Part shown: positions 23,846 to 30,756 of the stretch, piece after piece | Layout: the number at the start of each line of letters is the position of its first letter | Numbering within the stretch: position 1 is the first letter of the stretch | NCBI RefSeq assembly: GCF_022012395.1 | Contig: NZ_JAKLTQ010000005.1 | Location: forward strand, 124,001 to 188,000 | Direction: 5' to 3' | DNA length: 64,000 bases | From: Arthrobacter hankyongi | Lineage (GTDB): Bacteria > Actinomycetota > Actinomycetes > Actinomycetales > Micrococcaceae | Program-made: the position numbers and the translations under genes | The notes under the pieces: model-generated | Databases searched by the model: none | The model's input: only the letters and a program-made list of their open reading frames with translations | What the model was told of the DNA's origin: nothing

Positions 23846-24240
23846 TTATGTCAAGTAATTCGGCTGCGGCGCCGGAGAATCCGCGCCGCCGTGCTGGTGG
23901 CTGCGTGGGGGCTCTGGGCCGCACGCAGCCACCAGCACGGCATCCAGTGGTCCAGCGGTCCCGGGGACGGATCGTCAGTCCCGGCTCCGCACCCAGGCAG
24001 GTGTTCCACGGATGTCGTCCAAGGTTCTGCCGCGATGCGGTGGCCATCGATGCCGCTGCCGATACGCAGATACGGCGGGACCCGCACAGACGGACAGCTG
24101 CAATGGAGGACAATGCCGGCGGCGTGCCAATGATGGATGACGATGGTGCCAACATAGCTGTTGGCAGACCGGATATTGAACCGAATTCCACCCCTCCCGG
24201 CGCATTGGATAAAACGCCGATAATCTACATTATGTCAAGT
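23846..24240. repeat. Gene-free segment bounded by 11-bp direct repeats
   Basis: TTATGTCAAGT occurs at 23846-23856 and again at 24230-24240, bounding about 370 bp with no gene I can support. The segment starts with a long hairpin (23889-23940). It ends about 50 bp before the transposon. Whether the direct repeats mark an old insertion is not known. Confidence 0.5.
23889..23940. repeat. 19-bp perfect inverted repeat (hairpin)
   Basis: CCGTGCTGGTGGCTGCGTG (23889-23907) is repeated in exact inverted form at 23922-23940 with a 14-base spacer. There is no T tract on either side, so it is not an ordinary terminator of the SRPBCC gene 80 bp upstream. It may be a palindromic repetitive element. Confidence 0.85.
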
Positions 24241-24284
24241 TGAAGTGATCCAATCGTAGACACTGCCGAATAGGACCCGGTGAT

Positions 24285-24289
24285 ACGGC
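24285..24289 (+). repeat. Target-site duplication, left copy (ACGGC)
   Basis: ACGGC directly precedes the left terminus (TGTCC at 24290) and recurs exactly at 29257-29261 after the right terminus. Five bases is the duplication length of the Tn7 and Tn5053 families. Confidence 0.93.
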
Positions 24290-24316
24290 TGTCCTGTCTC
24301 AGTTAAGTTGGCGCAG
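24290..24316 (+). repeat. Left terminal inverted repeat
   Basis: Starts TGTCCTGTCTCAGTTAA and ends TTGGCGCAG. It matches the reverse complement of 29230-29256 at 26 of 27 positions (G here, A in the right end at position 18). Confidence 0.93.
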
Positions 24317-24401
24317 TCTCACTTAAGTTGTCACATCGGGCTGGTGTGTCTCAGGTTAGTTGTCGCATCGTTCGGCCTTGTCTCACTATTCTTGTCGCAT
24401 G
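24295..24401 (+). promoter_or_regulatory. Four left-end repeats, probable TnsB-binding sites
   Basis: Four direct copies of a unit of about 22 bp, TGTCTCA(C/G)..AGTTGTCGCATC: 24295-24316, 24315-24337, 24347-24369 and 24379-24401. The last three are spaced exactly 32 bp apart and the first two nearly abut. Multiple spaced TnsB sites at transposon ends are the Tn7 arrangement. The promoter for tnsA must lie in or beside these repeats, so TnsB binding could repress the operon (inference). Confidence 0.85.
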
Positions 24402-25157
24402 GCGGCGGCCGCCGTCCGGGTTGACGGCCAGGTTCCCGGATGTATCGGATTATCGTCACGCGAAAGCGCTGGCGGGCCTGTGGCTGTGCGTCCGCTGGCG
24501 GAGTCATGGATGCTTCGGTTTGAGGACTACGCGCCGGTCAGGTCCATGAATGCCCGCAGGCGGCAGCGCAACTTCAGCGGCTTGTGGTGGTGCGCTTCGA
24601 CCGGACGCCTGGTCGGGTACGAGTCCTGGCTGGAACGGGACCACCTGATGTGCCTGGACTTCGCCGCGGACGTTACCGGCATCGCGGCGCAGCCGTTCCG
24701 CCTTGATTTCCCGGATCTGCCCGGCGGACCATGCCGGCATGTTCCGGATTATTTTGCCAGGCTCTCCAACGGTGCGGCGGTGGTGATTGACGTCCGCCCG
24801 GATGCCAGGATCGGAGGGCGGGACCGAGAGGTATTCTCGGCCACGGAATCCGCCTGCGCGTCCGTGGGATGGGTCTACCGGCGGGTGGGCGAGCTGCCGA
24901 AGGTTTATACCGCAAACCTGCGCTGGCTGGCCGGGTACCGGCATCCACGGTGCCTGAACGCGGTCCATGCCGCGGCGCTGCTGGAGGCGCTCGGGTCCGG
25001 GTCCACGATCGGGGCCCTGGCTGCGGGGGCAGGTGATCCGGTCGCCGTGCTCCCCACGCTCTACCACCTGCTCTGGACGGGAGCCCTGAGGGCCGGACTG
25101 CAGGGCACTGCCCTCTCCCCCGGCACCCGGATCGGTCCGGGAGCTGCCGGTGGCTGA
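24399..25157 (+). CDS. tnsA: TnsA-like heteromeric transposase endonuclease subunit
   Basis: Predicted nuclease that cuts the 5' ends of the transposon while TnsB cuts the 3' ends, giving full excision. With ATG 24399 the product is 252 aa. The restriction-enzyme-like core runs YESWLERDHLM (Glu75, Glu79), then HVPDYFARL (Asp117), then VVIDVRP (131-133). The lysine of the canonical (D/E)xK triad appears to be Arg133, so activity is less certain than in Tn7 TnsA. GTG 24480 is an alternative start that leaves out a poorly conserved-looking N-terminus and the last repeat. The stop overlaps tnsB by eight bases. Confidence 0.82.
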   Translation: MAAAAVRVDGQVPGCIGLSSRESAGGPVAVRPLAESWMLRFEDYAPVRSMNARRRQRNFSGLWWCASTGRLVGYESWLERDHLMCLDFAADVTGIAAQPFRLDFPDLPGGPCRHVPDYFARLSNGAAVVIDVRPDARIGGRDREVFSATESACASVGWVYRRVGELPKVYTANLRWLAGYRHPRCLNAVHAAALLEALGSGSTIGALAAGAGDPVAVLPTLYHLLWTGALRAGLQGTALSPGTRIGPGAAGG

Positions 25158-27246
25158 GAACCCGCTGCGGGCCGTCGGCATCGGCGACGTCGTTGAACTC
25201 AGGGGCCTGACCTACCGGCTGGAGGGCCTGGACGGTGATGTTGCCATGCTGGCCATCCCGGGAAGGAATCCGGTCGCCATTAAGGTCGGCGCGCTGCTGG
25301 CCGATGACAGTTTCAGGGTTCTGTCCTCCGGCACCGGGACACGGCCGCGCGGCGGCCGGACGGGGCTGCCCGGGTTCCTGCCGGCACCGGTGAGGGAGCG
25401 GATCGGGCGGCTTGAGGACCACATCAGCGAGGTTCTGGACGGCATACCGCTTTCGGCGGCCGTCGGGACACGCCCGCGCCCCGAATACGATCCCGCCCGC
25501 CGGACCCTGCGCCAGCGCGAACTGGCCAAGCACGATGAACTGGCCCGGGCCGGTGAGCAGATGAGCCTGAGGACCCTGCAGCGCCTGCGCCGGGAATATG
25601 AGGCCAGGGGCGCCGAGGCCCTGATCGACCGGCGTTTGCTGCGGCGCAGACCGGTCGCCGGTCAGGTCGATGAGCGGTACGTCGAGGCCCTGCGCCGGAT
25701 TTTGGAGAAGAACACGCTCCGCTCAACGGGATCGCTGGACCGGCTCCGGCACGAGGCGGCCATGGCCGTGGAAGCCGAACACGGTGCCGGCGAGGTCGCC
25801 CTGCCGTCCCGTGCCACCTTCCATCGTCTGGTGGCACGCATGGCCGAGGGCCGCCACGCCACCGGATCCGCGCGCACCCGGCAGACTCTGGACCAGCAGC
25901 CCGACGGCCCCTTCGGTGCCGTGTATCCGGTGCGCCCCGGCGAGCTGATGCAGATCGATTCGACGCCCCTGGACATCGCCGTCGAGCTCGGGGACGGGAT
26001 CACCGGCCGGGTCGAGCTGACCGCGCTGGTCGATGTCGCCACCCGCAGCATCTGCGCGGCGGTGCTGCGCCCCACGACCAGGGCCGTCGATGCCGCCCTG
26101 CTGCTGGCCCGGTGCATGACGCCGGAACCGATGCGCCCGGGCTGGGCCGAGGCCGTGTCGATGGCCTCCTCGGCGCTGCCCTACCGCTCGATGCTTTCCG
26201 TGGACGCGCGGCTGCAAAACGCCGCGGCGAAGCCGGTCATCATCCCCGAAACGATAGTTTGCGACCATGGCAAGGCCTACCTCTCGGACGCCTTCCGGAA
26301 CGCCTGCCGGACCCTGGGGGTCAGCCTCCAGCCCGCCCACCCGGATACGCCCACGGACAAGCCGGTGATCGAACGCACCCTGGGCTCCGTGGGCACCCTG
26401 TTCGCCCAATACGTCACCGGCTATCTTGGCTCGTCGGCGGAACGCCGCGGCAAAAATGCCGACCGGCAGGCAGTTTTTTCCCTCATCGAGCTGCAGGACC
26501 TGCTGAAGGAATGGATCGTGACCGCCTGGCAGAACCGGCCCCACGAGGGACTGCGGGATCCGCTGACACCGTCCCGGGTCTTCACCCCGAACGAGAAATA
26601 CGCCTCGCTGCTGGCCGTGACCGGTTACGTGGCCGTGCCGCTGGGCGGCGACGACTATATCGAACTGCTCCCGGCGCTGACCAGGGCCATCAACTCCTAC
26701 GGGATCAGGATCAGGCACCGGGTCTACGACGGGCCCGGGCTGAACCCCTACCGGGGCCAGAAGTCCGGCATCACGGCCCTGAAAGACCTCTGGGAAGTGC
26801 ACTACGATCCCTACGACGTGACCCGCGTCTGGGTGCGCAACCATCACGACGGCGGCTGGATCACCGTGTTCTGGCGGCAGCTGCAGGCAGCCCCGCAGCC
26901 GTTCGGGGAGGCCATCTGGGAACGGGGCCGACAGATCGTTGCCGAACGCGGGACGACCGGCCCGTCGGAGCAGGCCATCACCGAAGCCGTGGAGAACCTG
27001 CTGGAGAGGGCATCGCCGGTTCCCGGTAAACCCGGGAAGAAGCCCAGGGATAAGAGGGCCGCCGCCCGCCAGGAGGCCATACCGGCCCCGGCATGGCCCC
27101 GCCCGCCCGAAGAACCTGCCCCCGGCGACGGCGGGACAGGCCCCGGATCCTGCATCGATGCCGGAGAGGACGACTACGAGGACCCCGCCAAGATCATCCC
27201 GCTGAAGGTCTACGACGCTCAGGAAGAGGCCAAGAAATGGTGGTAA
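25150..27246 (+). CDS. tnsB: TnsB-like DDE transposase
   Basis: Catalytic transposase (rve/Mu family) of 698 aa that binds the end repeats and joins the 3' ends to target DNA. Residues about 90-250 contain DNA-binding helices. The RNase H-fold catalytic residues are Asp270 (MQIDST), Asp372 (VCDHGKAY) and Glu408 (PVIERTLGS); the last two have 35 residues between them, the canonical DD35E spacing. A Mu C-terminal beta-barrel-like domain follows at about 500-590, then a disordered Pro/Glu-rich tail ending KKWW, where TnsB of Tn7 contacts TnsC. GTG start. Confidence 0.92.
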   Translation: MAENPLRAVGIGDVVELRGLTYRLEGLDGDVAMLAIPGRNPVAIKVGALLADDSFRVLSSGTGTRPRGGRTGLPGFLPAPVRERIGRLEDHISEVLDGIPLSAAVGTRPRPEYDPARRTLRQRELAKHDELARAGEQMSLRTLQRLRREYEARGAEALIDRRLLRRRPVAGQVDERYVEALRRILEKNTLRSTGSLDRLRHEAAMAVEAEHGAGEVALPSRATFHRLVARMAEGRHATGSARTRQTLDQQPDGPFGAVYPVRPGELMQIDSTPLDIAVELGDGITGRVELTALVDVATRSICAAVLRPTTRAVDAALLLARCMTPEPMRPGWAEAVSMASSALPYRSMLSVDARLQNAAAKPVIIPETIVCDHGKAYLSDAFRNACRTLGVSLQPAHPDTPTDKPVIERTLGSVGTLFAQYVTGYLGSSAERRGKNADRQAVFSLIELQDLLKEWIVTAWQNRPHEGLRDPLTPSRVFTPNEKYASLLAVTGYVAVPLGGDDYIELLPALTRAINSYGIRIRHRVYDGPGLNPYRGQKSGITALKDLWEVHYDPYDVTRVWVRNHHDGGWITVFWRQLQAAPQPFGEAIWERGRQIVAERGTTGPSEQAITEAVENLLERASPVPGKPGKKPRDKRAAARQEAIPAPAWPRPPEEPAPGDGGTGPGSCIDAGEDDYEDPAKIIPLKVYDAQEEAKKWW

Positions 27247-28262
27247 CCCCGGACCCGCCAGCGATCAGCCGTGCCCCCACCACAACGCTGGAGGGCTGGC
27301 GCAACTTCGTGAATACCGAACCGGCAGACGCGCCGATGCTGCCCGCCGCCGAGCTGGACCGGCTCGACCCGTCCGACAGTGAACGCTATGACGAGCGCAG
27401 GATCAGCTACCACTCCGAACTGGTCATCGTCCAGACCTCCACCGTGCGCGGCATCGTCCACCAGGGGCGCCTGCTGACCATGCTCAACCAGCGCGAGATT
27501 AGTGCCCGCCGCGGCCTGGTCGTCTCGGGGCCCTGGGCCTCGGGGAAAACCACCGCCGTCAAGCAGCTGGGCAAAACCCACGAGCACCGCATCAGGCTGC
27601 GTTACCCGGACCAGGACCGCATCCCGGTCGTTTACATCACCACCCCGCCGAAAGGCTCTCCCAGGAAACTGGCCGCCGAGTTCGCCAACTTCCTGGGCCT
27701 GCCCCAACGTCCCCGGCAGAACGTCACCGACATCGCCGACGCCGTCTGCCACGTCCTGACCGACGCGCGGACCGACCTGGTCATCGTCGACGAGATCCAC
27801 AACCTGAACCTGGCCACCAGCGCCGGGGAGGACATGTCCGACCACCTGAAATACTTCGCCGAGCACCTGCCGGCGACCTTCGTCTATGTCGGCATCAACG
27901 TCGAGAACTCCGGCCTGTTCACCGGCCTGCGCGGCCGCCAGCTCTCGGCCCGGACAGTGCTCAAGACCACCGGACCGTTCCCCTACGGGGAGGAATTCAA
28001 ATCCCTCGTCGCCACCCTCGAAGAGGCGCTCCGGCTTCACGACCACGCCCCGGGCACCCTCACCCGGGATGCCAGGTATCTGCACCGCCGCACCGGAGGC
28101 GGGATCAGCAGCCTCTCGCACCTGATCCGCCAGGCGGCCATCAGCGCCATCCTGACCCAGACCGAACGCATCGACCGCAACCTCCTGGACCAGACCTGCA
28201 TCGATCACGCCGCCGAGACAGCCAGTCCCCGGCCGACCGTGCACCCCGGGAAGGCACGGTGA
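27237..28262 (+). CDS. tnsC: TnsC-like AAA+ ATPase
   Basis: ATPase of 341 aa that links target recognition to the transposase and normally confers target immunity. Walker A is GPWASGKT (residues 98-105) and Walker B LVIVDEIHNL (181-190), with the DE acidic pair and a following His. Related to TniB/TnsC. ATG 27237 overlaps the tnsB end by ten bases. The length is intermediate between TniB (about 300 aa) and Tn7 TnsC (555 aa). Confidence 0.9.
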   Translation: MVVTPDPPAISRAPTTTLEGWRNFVNTEPADAPMLPAAELDRLDPSDSERYDERRISYHSELVIVQTSTVRGIVHQGRLLTMLNQREISARRGLVVSGPWASGKTTAVKQLGKTHEHRIRLRYPDQDRIPVVYITTPPKGSPRKLAAEFANFLGLPQRPRQNVTDIADAVCHVLTDARTDLVIVDEIHNLNLATSAGEDMSDHLKYFAEHLPATFVYVGINVENSGLFTGLRGRQLSARTVLKTTGPFPYGEEFKSLVATLEEALRLHDHAPGTLTRDARYLHRRTGGGISSLSHLIRQAAISAILTQTERIDRNLLDQTCIDHAAETASPRPTVHPGKAR

Positions 28263-29158
28263 CCGGCCGGGACCCTGTCCGTCTCCGGCCCCTGCCCCGG
28301 CGGATACGCCCCTATCCCGACGAAACCACCGCATCGTTCATCCGCAGGCTGGCAGCGGCAAACTTCATCGACCCGGCGCAGATACGGGACCTGCTGCGCC
28401 GGCCCGGAATCCCGCCCGGCCCGGGTCTGGCAATACTGGCAGGCTGCGGCGAGCAGCCGCTGATTCTGGCCATGCCGCAACTGGGCGCCGAAACCGAGCC
28501 CGGCCCGCACCTGGCCGGGCGGCCGGACCGGCGGACCCAAGGAATTGCCTGCCACCGCTGCGCCCTCGCCCGCGGGGCGGGCAGCCACGTCGGGATCTAC
28601 ACCACCCACGAGAAGGTGAGCTGTCCGCGCCACCTGCTCTGGCTCGGCACCGAAGTCCAGGAGCCCGGCGACCAGATACCACTTCAGCCCTGCCCGGACC
28701 TGCCGGCCGCCTTCCGCCGCCACCGGAACCTCATCGCCAGACTCGGCCGGCCGGCAGTATGCCGGGGATTCGCGATCGCCACCATCATCACCTGGCGCTG
28801 GCACGACCAGGGCCGCCAGCCGGACAGCTTCACCGCCCGGCTCCGTGCGCTCATCCCCGCCGGCCACCGGACCTGGGCCAGGCACCGGACAGCAACGGCC
28901 GCCGCACTCTACCCCTGCGTCGTCGGCCTCACCGCGGCAATAGCCTCACCTGCCTGGGCCCAAACCGCCCACTCGTCCCGGCCGAACGACTTCCTCCGCA
29001 GGATCAGCCTCCAGGCCACCGACGGCTGGATCCCCCAAGGCCAGCACGACCCGCTCCTGCACTGGATGCAGACCGGCTGGCAACCCGGATTCCCCGGACC
29101 CGACACGCTCCAACCACCCGGCCCGCCTCACATACCGCCGCCAACACGCGATCTGTGA
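28259..29158 (+). CDS. tniQ: TniQ-family target-selection protein
   Basis: Short 299-aa TniQ. The N-terminus has the family pattern PRRIRPYPDETTASFIRRLA, and a zinc finger is visible as CHRC (98-101) with CPRH (122-125). Tn7 TnsD adds a long DNA-binding C-terminus for a fixed attachment site; this protein has only about 170 residues after the zinc motif, so how it picks targets is unclear. It starts at GTG 28259, overlapping tnsC by four bases, and its stop codon lies inside the first right-end repeat. Confidence 0.85.
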   Translation: MTGRDPVRLRPLPRRIRPYPDETTASFIRRLAAANFIDPAQIRDLLRRPGIPPGPGLAILAGCGEQPLILAMPQLGAETEPGPHLAGRPDRRTQGIACHRCALARGAGSHVGIYTTHEKVSCPRHLLWLGTEVQEPGDQIPLQPCPDLPAAFRRHRNLIARLGRPAVCRGFAIATIITWRWHDQGRQPDSFTARLRALIPAGHRTWARHRTATAAALYPCVVGLTAAIASPAWAQTAHSSRPNDFLRRISLQATDGWIPQGQHDPLLHWMQTGWQPGFPGPDTLQPPGPPHIPPPTRDL

Positions 29159-29251
29159 CAACTAAAGTGAGACAAATCCGCCCAGGCAGTCTCACTTTAG
29201 TTGTCGCATCCCACGTCAGAGCCCCACGGCTGCGCCAATTTAACTGAGACA
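29152..29251. promoter_or_regulatory. Three right-end repeats, probable TnsB-binding sites
   Basis: Units related to the left-end sites at 29152-29174 (inverted relative to the left end), 29188-29210 (direct, same orientation as the left end) and 29230-29251 (inverted, outermost). The orientation of the middle unit breaks the usual rule that all sites at one end point the same way. The innermost unit contains the tniQ stop. Confidence 0.82.
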
Positions 29252-29256
29252 GGACA
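29230..29256 (-). repeat. Right terminal inverted repeat
   Basis: Reads TGTCCTGTCTCAGTTAA then ATTGGCGCAG on the minus strand; 26 of 27 positions equal the left repeat. Confidence 0.93.
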
Positions 29257-29261
29257 ACGGC
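29257..29261 (+). repeat. Target-site duplication, right copy (ACGGC)
   Basis: Exact copy of 24285-24289, directly after the terminal ACA of the transposon. Confidence 0.93.
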
Positions 29262-29331: not shown

Positions 29332-30090
29332 GTGGGTCCGATGTACAGGGTTCGGAGGGTGATGGTACCCGAAGAGGGCCGGTTGATCCGGCTTCCGCTG
29401 CGTCAGGGAGCATTTGCCGCAGAGGCCGTGTTCGACATGCTCGCCGGCTGGAAACAGCAGCAGCTGGCCCGGAACTTCAGGTTCGGCACGATCCGGGGAC
29501 GGGAGGGCCTGGTCCGGCGGTTTGTCGATCGCACCCGTTCCCTGGGACTGGACGGTCGAGGATGCCGACGAGTTCTTCGCCCATGAGCGGTCCATCCTGA
29601 ACCTGGCGTTTGCCACCATCCGCGCCCACCAGGCCCATCTGAAGCTGTTCTGCGACTTCCTGACCGATCCCGGCTATGAGTGGGACCGGATCTGCGTGCA
29701 GGGGTTCGGCCGCTCCCCTGTCCAGATCATCACCGAACTCAACCGGGCACGCCACGCCCAGAACAACGAACAGGCACCGGCCAAAAGGCCCTTTAGCCGG
29801 GCCGAGTTGCAGAGATTCTTCGATCTGGCCGACCTCGAGGTCGAACGGGTCCTGGCATCGGGGCGCAAGGGCGCGGTGGCCGCCTACCGGGACGCAACGG
29901 TGTTCAAGACCGCCTACGCCTGGGGCCTGCGTCCTGGATACCTGGATCCGGACCGGGCTGCCCTGGCTGTCCCCTGCCGTGTGGGAAATCTTCCCCACGG
30001 CCACCGCGGTGCAGGTTCCCAAGTCGAACCCGCACCGCCGCTTCCGGGACTATATCGACGAGCTCGGTTATCTGCCGGGCCCCGCGTCTG
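29332..30090 (+). pseudogene. Decayed tyrosine recombinase/integrase
   Basis: Three reading frames must be joined to give an integrase-like protein. The first (29332 to about 29560) gives the N-terminus (RLIRLPLRQGAF to RTRSLGLD), the second continues WTVEDADEFFAHERSIL through the core-binding domain to TVFKTAYAWGLR, which holds the first catalytic Arg, and the third gives VWEIFPTATAVQV to DELGYLPG near 30085. The region with the HxxR box and the catalytic Tyr is missing, so the gene cannot work. It lies directly after the transposon, with no sign that the transposon interrupted it. Confidence 0.72.
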
Positions 30091-30100
30091 AGACAGGACA
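30088..30100 (+). repeat. Solitary 13-bp copy of the transposon terminus
   Basis: CTGAGACAGGACA equals the outer 13 bases of the right terminal repeat (29244-29256). No inner repeats accompany it. It lies where the integrase pseudogene loses its reading frame. Confidence 0.6.
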
Positions 30101-30756
30101 GCCCGGCTGGATGCCGGGCAAAGCGTTGTCTTTTCCCTCGGGGATTAACCCGGTCCTGGTCTGCCGGTCCCGCTCCCCATCAGGCAGGGACAGTAAAACT
30201 CCCGTCAACGTGGCTCAGATTTCGCCCCGCGAAACGGCTCACTTTTCGACCGGCGCTGACAGCCGAGATGCTGGTTATCGGCCACGGCGGGTTTGGCGGT
30301 CTGCTGGTCCGGTCGGTCAGCTCAGCGTACATCGCCTACTGCCCGCTGTTTGCCGTCCATGCGCCCGGTGACAGAACGGCATGGAATTGGTCCGTCTGCT
30401 CAGCCGGCCGCGTTGATCTTCAGCGGGTCTAACGCTCCGTTGATTACTCGAATCCTGATCGCACGCGTTGGGCAGAACCTACGCTGGCCTTCCGCCAGAT
30501 GAGCTAAACGGACAGCCAGGTCCGGCCCGGTTAGGCAAAGCTGCACAGCGCTGGGGTCTTGTGCGCCGGTACTCCGCTTTGGGCCTCTTCGCTACCGGAC
30601 ACGCACCTGATGTACTCGAACACACTCGGAGGCCTCATGCAGCAACACGAGGAGTCCCCCAGCCCGCTGGTGGAAGACGTACAGTCATTGCCGGGCCATT
30701 CACAGATCCGCGACGTAGCCTTAGGATCAGGCGGGACGTTCGCGGAGGTGTGCCGT
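30101..30756. other. Gene-free stretch before the MgtA-like ATPase
   Basis: About 650 bp without a supportable gene. Reading frames here are short and have no family-like features. It probably holds debris of the integrase region and the upstream control region of the ATPase gene. Confidence 0.5.

Follow-up and report, generated by a model that had tools for sequence, protein, structure and literature searches.

A compact transposon that carries nothing beyond its own machinery raises the question of where it inserts and by what rule. In this study, we examine this question for an element in a 64,000-nucleotide stretch of the Arthrobacter hankyongi genome (the window; contig NZ_JAKLTQ010000005.1, positions 124,001 to 188,000), where positions 24290-29256 hold an intact element of 4,967 bp with the gene order tnsA-tnsB-tnsC-tniQ. 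All of our evidence comes from sequence comparison. That the element is real is practically certain, and with high confidence we interpret it as a Tn7-like transposon that is self-sufficient, free of cargo and led by its target pathway to chromosomal dif. This site is generally kept by bacteria with circular chromosomes, where it serves the separation of joined chromosomes, and is therefore a good safe harbour. A sequence-only reading of the window had described the element as having an unknown target rule; so it was to that reader, and a rule can now be proposed, since the element lies 49 bp from dif and this arrangement is repeated in relatives.

Structurally, the left, tnsA-proximal terminal inverted repeat, TGTCCTGTCTCAGTTAAGTTGGCGCAG (24290-24316, forward strand), is mirrored by a right repeat on the reverse strand (29230-29256). 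These 27-nt arms are complementary at 26 of 27 positions (96%), and exact copies of the target-site duplication ACGGC flank the element (24285-24289 and 29257-29261); Tn7 likewise makes a 5-bp target duplication. A scan for TGT...ACA pairs with an exact 5-bp duplication, allowing the left end up to 1.5 kb before tnsA and the right end at any downstream position in the window, found this pair to be clearly the best, with 23 of 24 letters against 11 of 24 for the runner-up. Within the ends lie four repeats on the left (at 24293, 24313, 24345 and 24380, spanning 24293-24400 on the forward strand; repeat families D1 and D2) and two more, facing each other, on the right (29154-29173 and 29186-29210), which, by analogy with Tn7, are presumed to be TnsB binding sites. 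Such ends, putative binding sites and a 5-bp duplication are in keeping with a Tn7-like element. Only 98 bp separate tniQ from the right end, so that cargo has no room; nor is there room for a resolvase gene, and this, together with the presence of TnsA, places the element outside the Tn5053/Tn402 group. What the sequence-only reading had claimed of its make-up, a complete minimal TnsABC-TniQ element with four overlapping genes, 27-bp inverted repeats and an exact 5-bp duplication, lacking cargo and resolvase, is thus borne out by genes, ends and remainder alike. The element is single-copy in its own genome (G000 in our numbering, 5.19 Mb; G numbers denote genomes and L numbers loci).

The four open reading frames overlap, all on the forward strand. 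The product of tnsA (24510-25157) matches the TnsA-like endonuclease family NF033179 (TnsA_like_Actin) at E 1.2e-76, scoring 256.9 bits against a cut-off of 110, and has no Pfam match at E 0.01. Its frame is open from 24360, and translation probably starts not at the TTG there but at residue 51, the ATG at 24510, because the family match begins at residue 47 and the end repeats occupy 24290-24400. The 698-residue DDE transposase encoded by tnsB (25150-27246) matches PF09299 (Mu-transpos_C, 7e-8) and, below the gathering score, PF00665 (rve, 9.4e-7); its best match among solved TnsB chains is that of Tn6677 (5.3e-11), and it has the D, D and E residues of the TnsB/Mu-type catalytic motif (D270, D372 and E408). 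The AAA+ regulator TnsC (341 residues; gene at 27237-28262) matches PF05621 (TniB, 5.3e-18) and, among solved TnsC chains, ShTnsC (8.5e-8), and contains both the Walker A (GPWASGKT) and Walker B motifs of a TnsC/TniB ATPase. Finally, tniQ (28259-29158) encodes the presumed target selector of 299 residues. Its single-sequence match to PF06527 (5.5e-4, 21.0 bits, below the gathering score of 27) is weak alone and PHROGs yielded no match; a TniQ domain is supported by a profile from 43 TniQ proteins, which matches solved TniQ chains at 8.9e-4 (ShTniQ) to 1.3e-3, and by C98, C101, C122 and H125, which are invariant among the 43 relatives.

Outside the left end lies the 28-bp sequence AACGCCGATAATCTACATTATGTCAAGT (24213-24240, forward strand), an actinobacterial dif, and we have hardly any doubt that it is the targeted site. 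Its 24-nt dif core, CCGATAATNNACATTATGTCAAGT, is matched without mismatch 73 bp before the left end, the sole match in the window at up to 4 mismatches, and the 28-mer agrees in 25 of 28 letters with the predicted dif of Frankia alni, as printed in PMC3025954. The XerC-spacer-XerD order of dif is that given in PMC10132070, and by analogy we assign the right half-site, TTATGT, to XerD; this XerD-type half-site (TTATGTCAAGT) points toward the element. Cumulative GC skew in the window peaks at 22-26 kb, the position of dif, and then declines to about 56 kb, the skew over 20 kb being +0.013 on the left side and -0.040 on the right. The genome holds one exact copy and a second dif-like site with one mismatch (C26:8922-8945). 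A 28-bp motif, one per chromosome and near the skew switch, is what would be expected of chromosomal dif, and the sequence in the window fits this description. Between dif and the element lies a 49-bp spacer (24241-24289), whose sequence is little conserved among relatives while its length is held at 34-61 bp. All 10 genomes of the window's genus have a dif site at no more than 1 mismatch; a Tn7-like end adjoins it in three (G000, G002 and G006), and none was seen in the other seven within the 122-300 nt examined.

The sequence-only reading had expected that a motif common to many insertions would reveal the target rule, and flank comparison of relatives indeed gave dif. A shared ACATTATGTCA stands at nearly equal distance in the 70 bp outside the left ends of the window element and of relatives in Nocardioides (L006) and Kribbella (L023), and in L107, a relative from another genus, ATAATCTACATTATGTCAAGTTG lies precisely as far from the left end as in the window element. 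A TnsB search that ignored dif (E <= 1e-100) identified carriers in 14 of 395 family genomes. The left flank is readable in 12; the contigs of the remaining two, G384 and G057, begin at the left end, and in G057 dif and an end of this kind are joined on another contig, presumably the end of the same element. Measured from the last base of dif to the first base of the element, the gap to dif is 34-61 bp in 10 of these 12 elements (G000, G164, G143, G230, G129, G376, G094, G266, G242 and G023); the left end of L126 is ambiguous, at 34 or 40 bp from dif, and 40 was used in one computation. Together with those in Nocardioides and Kribbella, all 12 elements at dif have one and the same half of dif on their side and point their tnsA-proximal end at it. 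Under a simple model (200 bp in 4.2 Mb) the chance of the observed adjacency is about 4e-42, a figure that assumes independence, as differing duplications and spacings support, and that, like our motif-label counts, depends on our end calls. In each of 11 host genomes of relatives searched, the dif motif (at most 1 mismatch) occurs once, and that copy adjoins the element.

These elements are separate insertions, because their duplications differ (ACGGC, GTTGT, GCCCG, TCCAC and ACTGC in the five with matched ends) and their spacer lengths vary. A pattern of dif, 32-62 bp and TGTCCNNTCTCA, which sees one orientation only, occurs in 11 of the 395 family genomes; reversed as a control, it occurs in none of them. 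The L107 locus has another copy of the left end (95.7% over 47 bp), which begins within the duplication at the right end; should this copy stem from an earlier insertion, the two insertions would differ by 3 bp in their position relative to dif. Several ends found by the pattern have no TnsB match: L152 retains only a piece of tniQ and L153 and L154 a piece of tnsA, while L151, L155, L156 and L158, as well as L157, which came from the genus search instead of the pattern, have no gene match in the DNA fetched, L155 and L158 stopping less than 400 bases from dif. We count these as ends at dif, not as complete elements, and L153 (G168) and L154 (G179) are probably one event, since their junctions are near-identical. 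Because some ends there are remnants, dif is a place of repeated landing where copies decay.

Two further features were seen at these sites. At L157 (G002:C77), a stretch of about 300 bp next to dif contains repeats of the left-end type in both orientations, and the 4.4-kb contig gave no match to a tns gene; L157 is perhaps a non-autonomous or deleted copy. A small palindrome of the GCATCTGATGC or CATCAGATG type follows dif in the spacers of L106, L123, L006, L023 and L129 and also in L110, L113 and L118, and occurs in family genomes with or without an element. The two longest spacings of TnsB-anchored elements, 58 and 61 bp, are found where it is GCATCTGATGC.

Uninterrupted sites provide a further view of insertion. 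The L123 element (5,019 bp, duplication GCCCG) has ends identical over their first 25 nt, and its joined flanks align across the junction with four genomes of the same genus, at 89% (G414), 81% (G477), 77% (G417) and 86% (G448). In total, 150 genomes were searched, of which 141 gave some match, most of them over the dif neighbourhood only. Natural uninterrupted sites, as judged from these alignments, therefore exist for this element. To the right of the window element, a gene taken by eye for a tyrosine recombinase was rejected as such: the frames in 29332-30371 are broken and overlapping, Pfam gave no match, and the integrase match is weak (PHROG 1, 1.3e-3); nor does the target rule require such a gene. 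A similar stretch (69.5% over 128 nt) lies near a dif-like site in G004:C43 (L121), and 29332-30371 is possibly a remnant of another dif-using mobile element.

Several observations weigh against the interpretation of a functional, dif-directed transposon. An empty site joined across a single ACGGC in related strains, which had been put forward as a check, was not found for the window insertion: its flanks are unconserved at the dif loci of nine other genomes of the genus, and joined they gave short matches around dif and the one stretch of 69.5% over 128 nt. Two of the 12 readable family elements, G383 and G350, have no dif beside the left end. Of the ten family elements at dif, only three (G000, G143 and G376) have paired ends with a duplication; none were found for G230, G129, G094, G266, G242 and G023, and the candidate right end of G164 is without duplication. 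Some copies at dif are inactive, as several ends are remnants and tnsB of G129 has an in-frame stop. As proof of dif in other hosts GC skew is weak in three of five, the 20-kb sign change being clear in the window, G164 and G376 and not in G143, G230 and G129. More widely, we fetched relatives by TnsB similarity and examined 87 loci for ends (79 on genome contigs, 7 on plasmids, and the window); among the 79, only L006 and L023 are directly beside dif. In seven mycobacterial relatives (L009, L018, L019, L021, L027, L028 and L029), dif and the left end are only loosely spaced, at 0.3-7 kb and mostly 0.3-2 kb, and five of them adjoin CGTCACWGTGACG instead. Finally, of 101 loci labelled by left-flank motif, 56 have no recognised motif.

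To discern how such an element would find dif, it is important to ask which protein selects the target. We consider TniQ very probably to be the selector, as the element holds no other candidate gene. In the mechanism that we propose, TniQ would recognise the roughly palindromic dif, directly or via XerC/XerD bound there, and nucleate TnsC toward the XerD side; TnsA and TnsB would then excise the element and join it about 35-60 bp away, its tnsA-proximal end facing dif. As dif would stay whole, the host should keep dimer resolution. Between the two routes of recognition we lean slightly toward a direct reading of dif DNA by TniQ. The alternative, to which we give roughly a one-in-three standing, is recognition by the element of dif-bound XerC/XerD (or FtsK-XerCD), much as the Tn5053-family 'res site hunters' act at resolvase-occupied res. 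Consistent with this, hosts with slightly differing dif sequences are all targeted, and the authors describing the IS1202 family propose contact with XerC at dif (PMC10132070). However, the element sits at the XerD side at 34-61 bp, as opposed to 5 bp at the XerC side for IS1202-family elements, and other clades adjoin palindromes before an HTH_3 regulator or ABC-transporter gene, which are not Xer sites. The latter favours DNA reading by a changeable TniQ.

These other palindromes deserve closer description. Among the 101 labelled loci, 12 carry dif, 11 the mycobacterial CGTCACWGTGACG, 9 the Streptomyces TTGCAAGC..GCTTGCAA and 2 a GAACTGAC..GTCAGT palindrome, while 11 flanks are too short. 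The mycobacterial and Streptomyces palindromes were considered as dif variants and rejected; they are different sites. Because the non-dif motifs were selected after flank inspection and several mycobacterial elements are near-identical, these counts are leads and not tests. The Streptomyces palindrome, 28 bp long, stands outside the left end in L031, L033, L034, L035, L037, L038, L043, L056 and L059, its centre being 51-63 bp from that end where measured (L031, L033, L034, L037 and L043). In the four of these nine loci checked for context (L031, L033, L037 and L059), the palindrome stops 8-11 bp short of where an HTH_3 gene begins in its longest reading. It occurs once in two of three genomes of its class searched (L031 and L033) and was not found in the genomes of L034, whose site differs beyond the allowed letter, or L060, of another class. 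The mycobacterial pattern was found, once, in one of four genomes searched, because its outer letters vary, and the GAACTGAC..GTCAGT palindrome stands, in each of its two loci, some 20 bp ahead of an ABC-transporter gene. Separately, L073, whose end is doubtful, and L082, from different Streptomycetaceae, have an alignable left flank in common, TACCGACTCAATG ... GTGTTCGCC, which suggests yet another fixed target.

A TnsB tree of loci from this analysis (100 rows, built by a quick method and rooted at the midpoint) groups the window element with L106-L109 at a Shimodaira-Hasegawa-like approximate likelihood ratio test (SH-aLRT) value of 97 and with L006 and L007 at 100. On this tree the dif label needs 6 changes, of which 4 are forced by well-supported branches, compared with a mean of 11.4 after shuffling; the target thus changes between clades, dif having been reached repeatedly or lost. 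We see about an even chance that these elements are 'palindrome hunters', compact machines whose short TniQ, probably acting as a dimer and recognising DNA symmetry directly, is re-tuned between clades to palindromic control sites. The targets would then be dif (in the clade of the window element and no fewer than two other branches), the operator-like palindrome before HTH_3 genes in Streptomyces, the mycobacterial CGTCACWGTGACG and the palindrome before an ABC-transporter gene.

A different concern is whether the element is naturally minimal or a decayed carrier that has lost its cargo. Paired ends with an exact 5-bp duplication were identified in 19 of the 87 loci, four of these being doubtful (L031, L071, L073 and L077; the last three were left out of the set used for the distance from tniQ to the right end, and L031 was kept). 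In that set of 19 delineated elements, which includes L031 with its doubtful ends, the distance is at most 277 bp in six; one of the six is L066, which at 13 of 24 letters is at the detection threshold. Relatives carry up to 3.4 kb in this interval, and a plasmid relative has metal-transport genes after tniQ, its right end not having been found; both are in line with cargo loss. On the other hand, compact forms with paired ends and a duplication recur in different branches of the tree, namely L107 (5,080 bp), L123 (5,019 bp), L124 (4,845 bp) and L081 (4,972 bp, the tniQ end of which was set by hand from the match), and we regard cargo loss as unlikely. The earlier description of a cargo-free minimal element accordingly stands as to the missing cargo, while the form is not unprecedented, in view of Tn5469 and the six family elements. 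Nor do the same genes always come with extra genes or with other ends, the outcome that had been named as fatal to that description: L107 and L123 have the same four genes and like ends with nothing extra. As to plasmid forms, L088 (Rhodococcus plasmid NZ_CP126457.1) has three tnsABC-type operons side by side within about 14 kb, an array that suggests repeated insertion at one place.

It is very improbable that there is no site recognition and that dif merely marks a terminus region preferred for its colliding forks, late replication or FtsK activity. The coincidence of dif with the skew turning point would fit such a preference, as would the loose spacing, mostly 0.3-2 kb, of the seven mycobacterial relatives that share a locus with dif, but the 34-61 bp spacing and single orientation in 12 of 12 elements are far tighter than a regional bias, and elements of related clades adjoin other palindromes without an evident link to the terminus. 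Weakest of all is a single ancient insertion beside dif, inherited vertically and mimicking repeated targeting: the window element and four others at dif do form one clade (SH-aLRT 97) within one family, but this explanation is already contradicted by the scarcity of carriers (14 of 395 genomes), differing duplications and spacer lengths, spacers only 32% identical over 33 nt (little above chance), empty sites in the L123 host's genus and the scatter of dif neighbours over the TnsB tree (6 label changes, 4 forced).

A four-gene element that finds dif shows how little machinery protein-guided Tn7 targeting needs, provides an experimental handle on whether a short TniQ reads DNA itself or a bound protein, and is a candidate for a tool that makes one insertion, at a predictable place, in the actinobacterial terminus. 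If direct reading is true, the dif and non-dif clades together would reveal the TniQ residues that set specificity; if TniQ is indeed re-tuned from palindrome to palindrome, the family would be a natural set of swappable protein-guided integrases, one of them working at the single chromosomal dif.

Parts of this picture are already published, according to the passages cited: cargo-free Tn7-like elements and, for Tn5053, resolvase-site targeting by TniQ (PMC11406308), as well as dif targeting by TnsB-like insertion sequences (PMC10132070). Among the literature matches listed, which cover few subscription papers, none was found to describe a TnsABC-TniQ element that targets dif; the main texts of PMC8649781, PMC11406308 and PMC10293859 do not contain the word 'dif', and the matched passages pairing it with 'Tn7-like', TniQ or TnsB concern other subjects. 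By description, a close group is clade 2 of the Tn7-like transposons (Benler 2021; PMC8649781), which has the same core gene kinds, is dominated by Actinobacteria and is said there to have no experimentally characterised member. Resolvases are reported as prevalent in clades 2 and 3 (PMC8649781), and the window element has none. Tn5469 is also described as Tn7-like and cargo-free with one TniQ, but is cyanobacterial and apparently untargeted (PMC11406308). The IS1202 family (ISAjo2, ISAba71; Harmer 2023, PMC10132070) is similar in its TnsB-like DDE transposase, TGT...ACA ends, 5-bp duplication and single orientation beside dif or pdif. Its members are, however, single-gene insertion sequences of 1.5 kb without TnsA, TnsC or TniQ that lie 5 bp from the XerC side, whereas the window element has four genes in 4,967 bp and lies 49 bp from the XerD side. 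With Tn5053/Tn402 it has in common a single TniQ aimed at a site-specific recombination site; those elements lack TnsA, use a resolvase and target the resolvase sites of Tn1721-type elements, abundant on plasmids (PMC11406308), whereas the window element has TnsA, lacks a resolvase and is aimed at the XerCD site of the chromosome itself. A parallel in behaviour is Tn7 itself, with its TnsA, TnsB, TnsC and TniQ-domain selector, TGT...ACA ends with several binding sites, and insertion that keeps a set spacing to a chromosomal site and leaves this site intact. Tn7 inserts about 25 bp from the TnsD site without need of the intervening sequence (PMC2918618), and nearly all predicted insertions of its CRISPR-guided relatives lie 50-60 bp from the protospacer (PMC8649781); the arrangement described here, a spacing of 34-61 bp with an unconserved spacer beside a target left intact, resembles both. 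Thus, although the core machinery is that of Tn7, its target, attTn7 at glmS reached with TnsABC+D, is replaced by dif, and the selector is a short TniQ of 299 residues, in an element with no room for TnsE or cargo.

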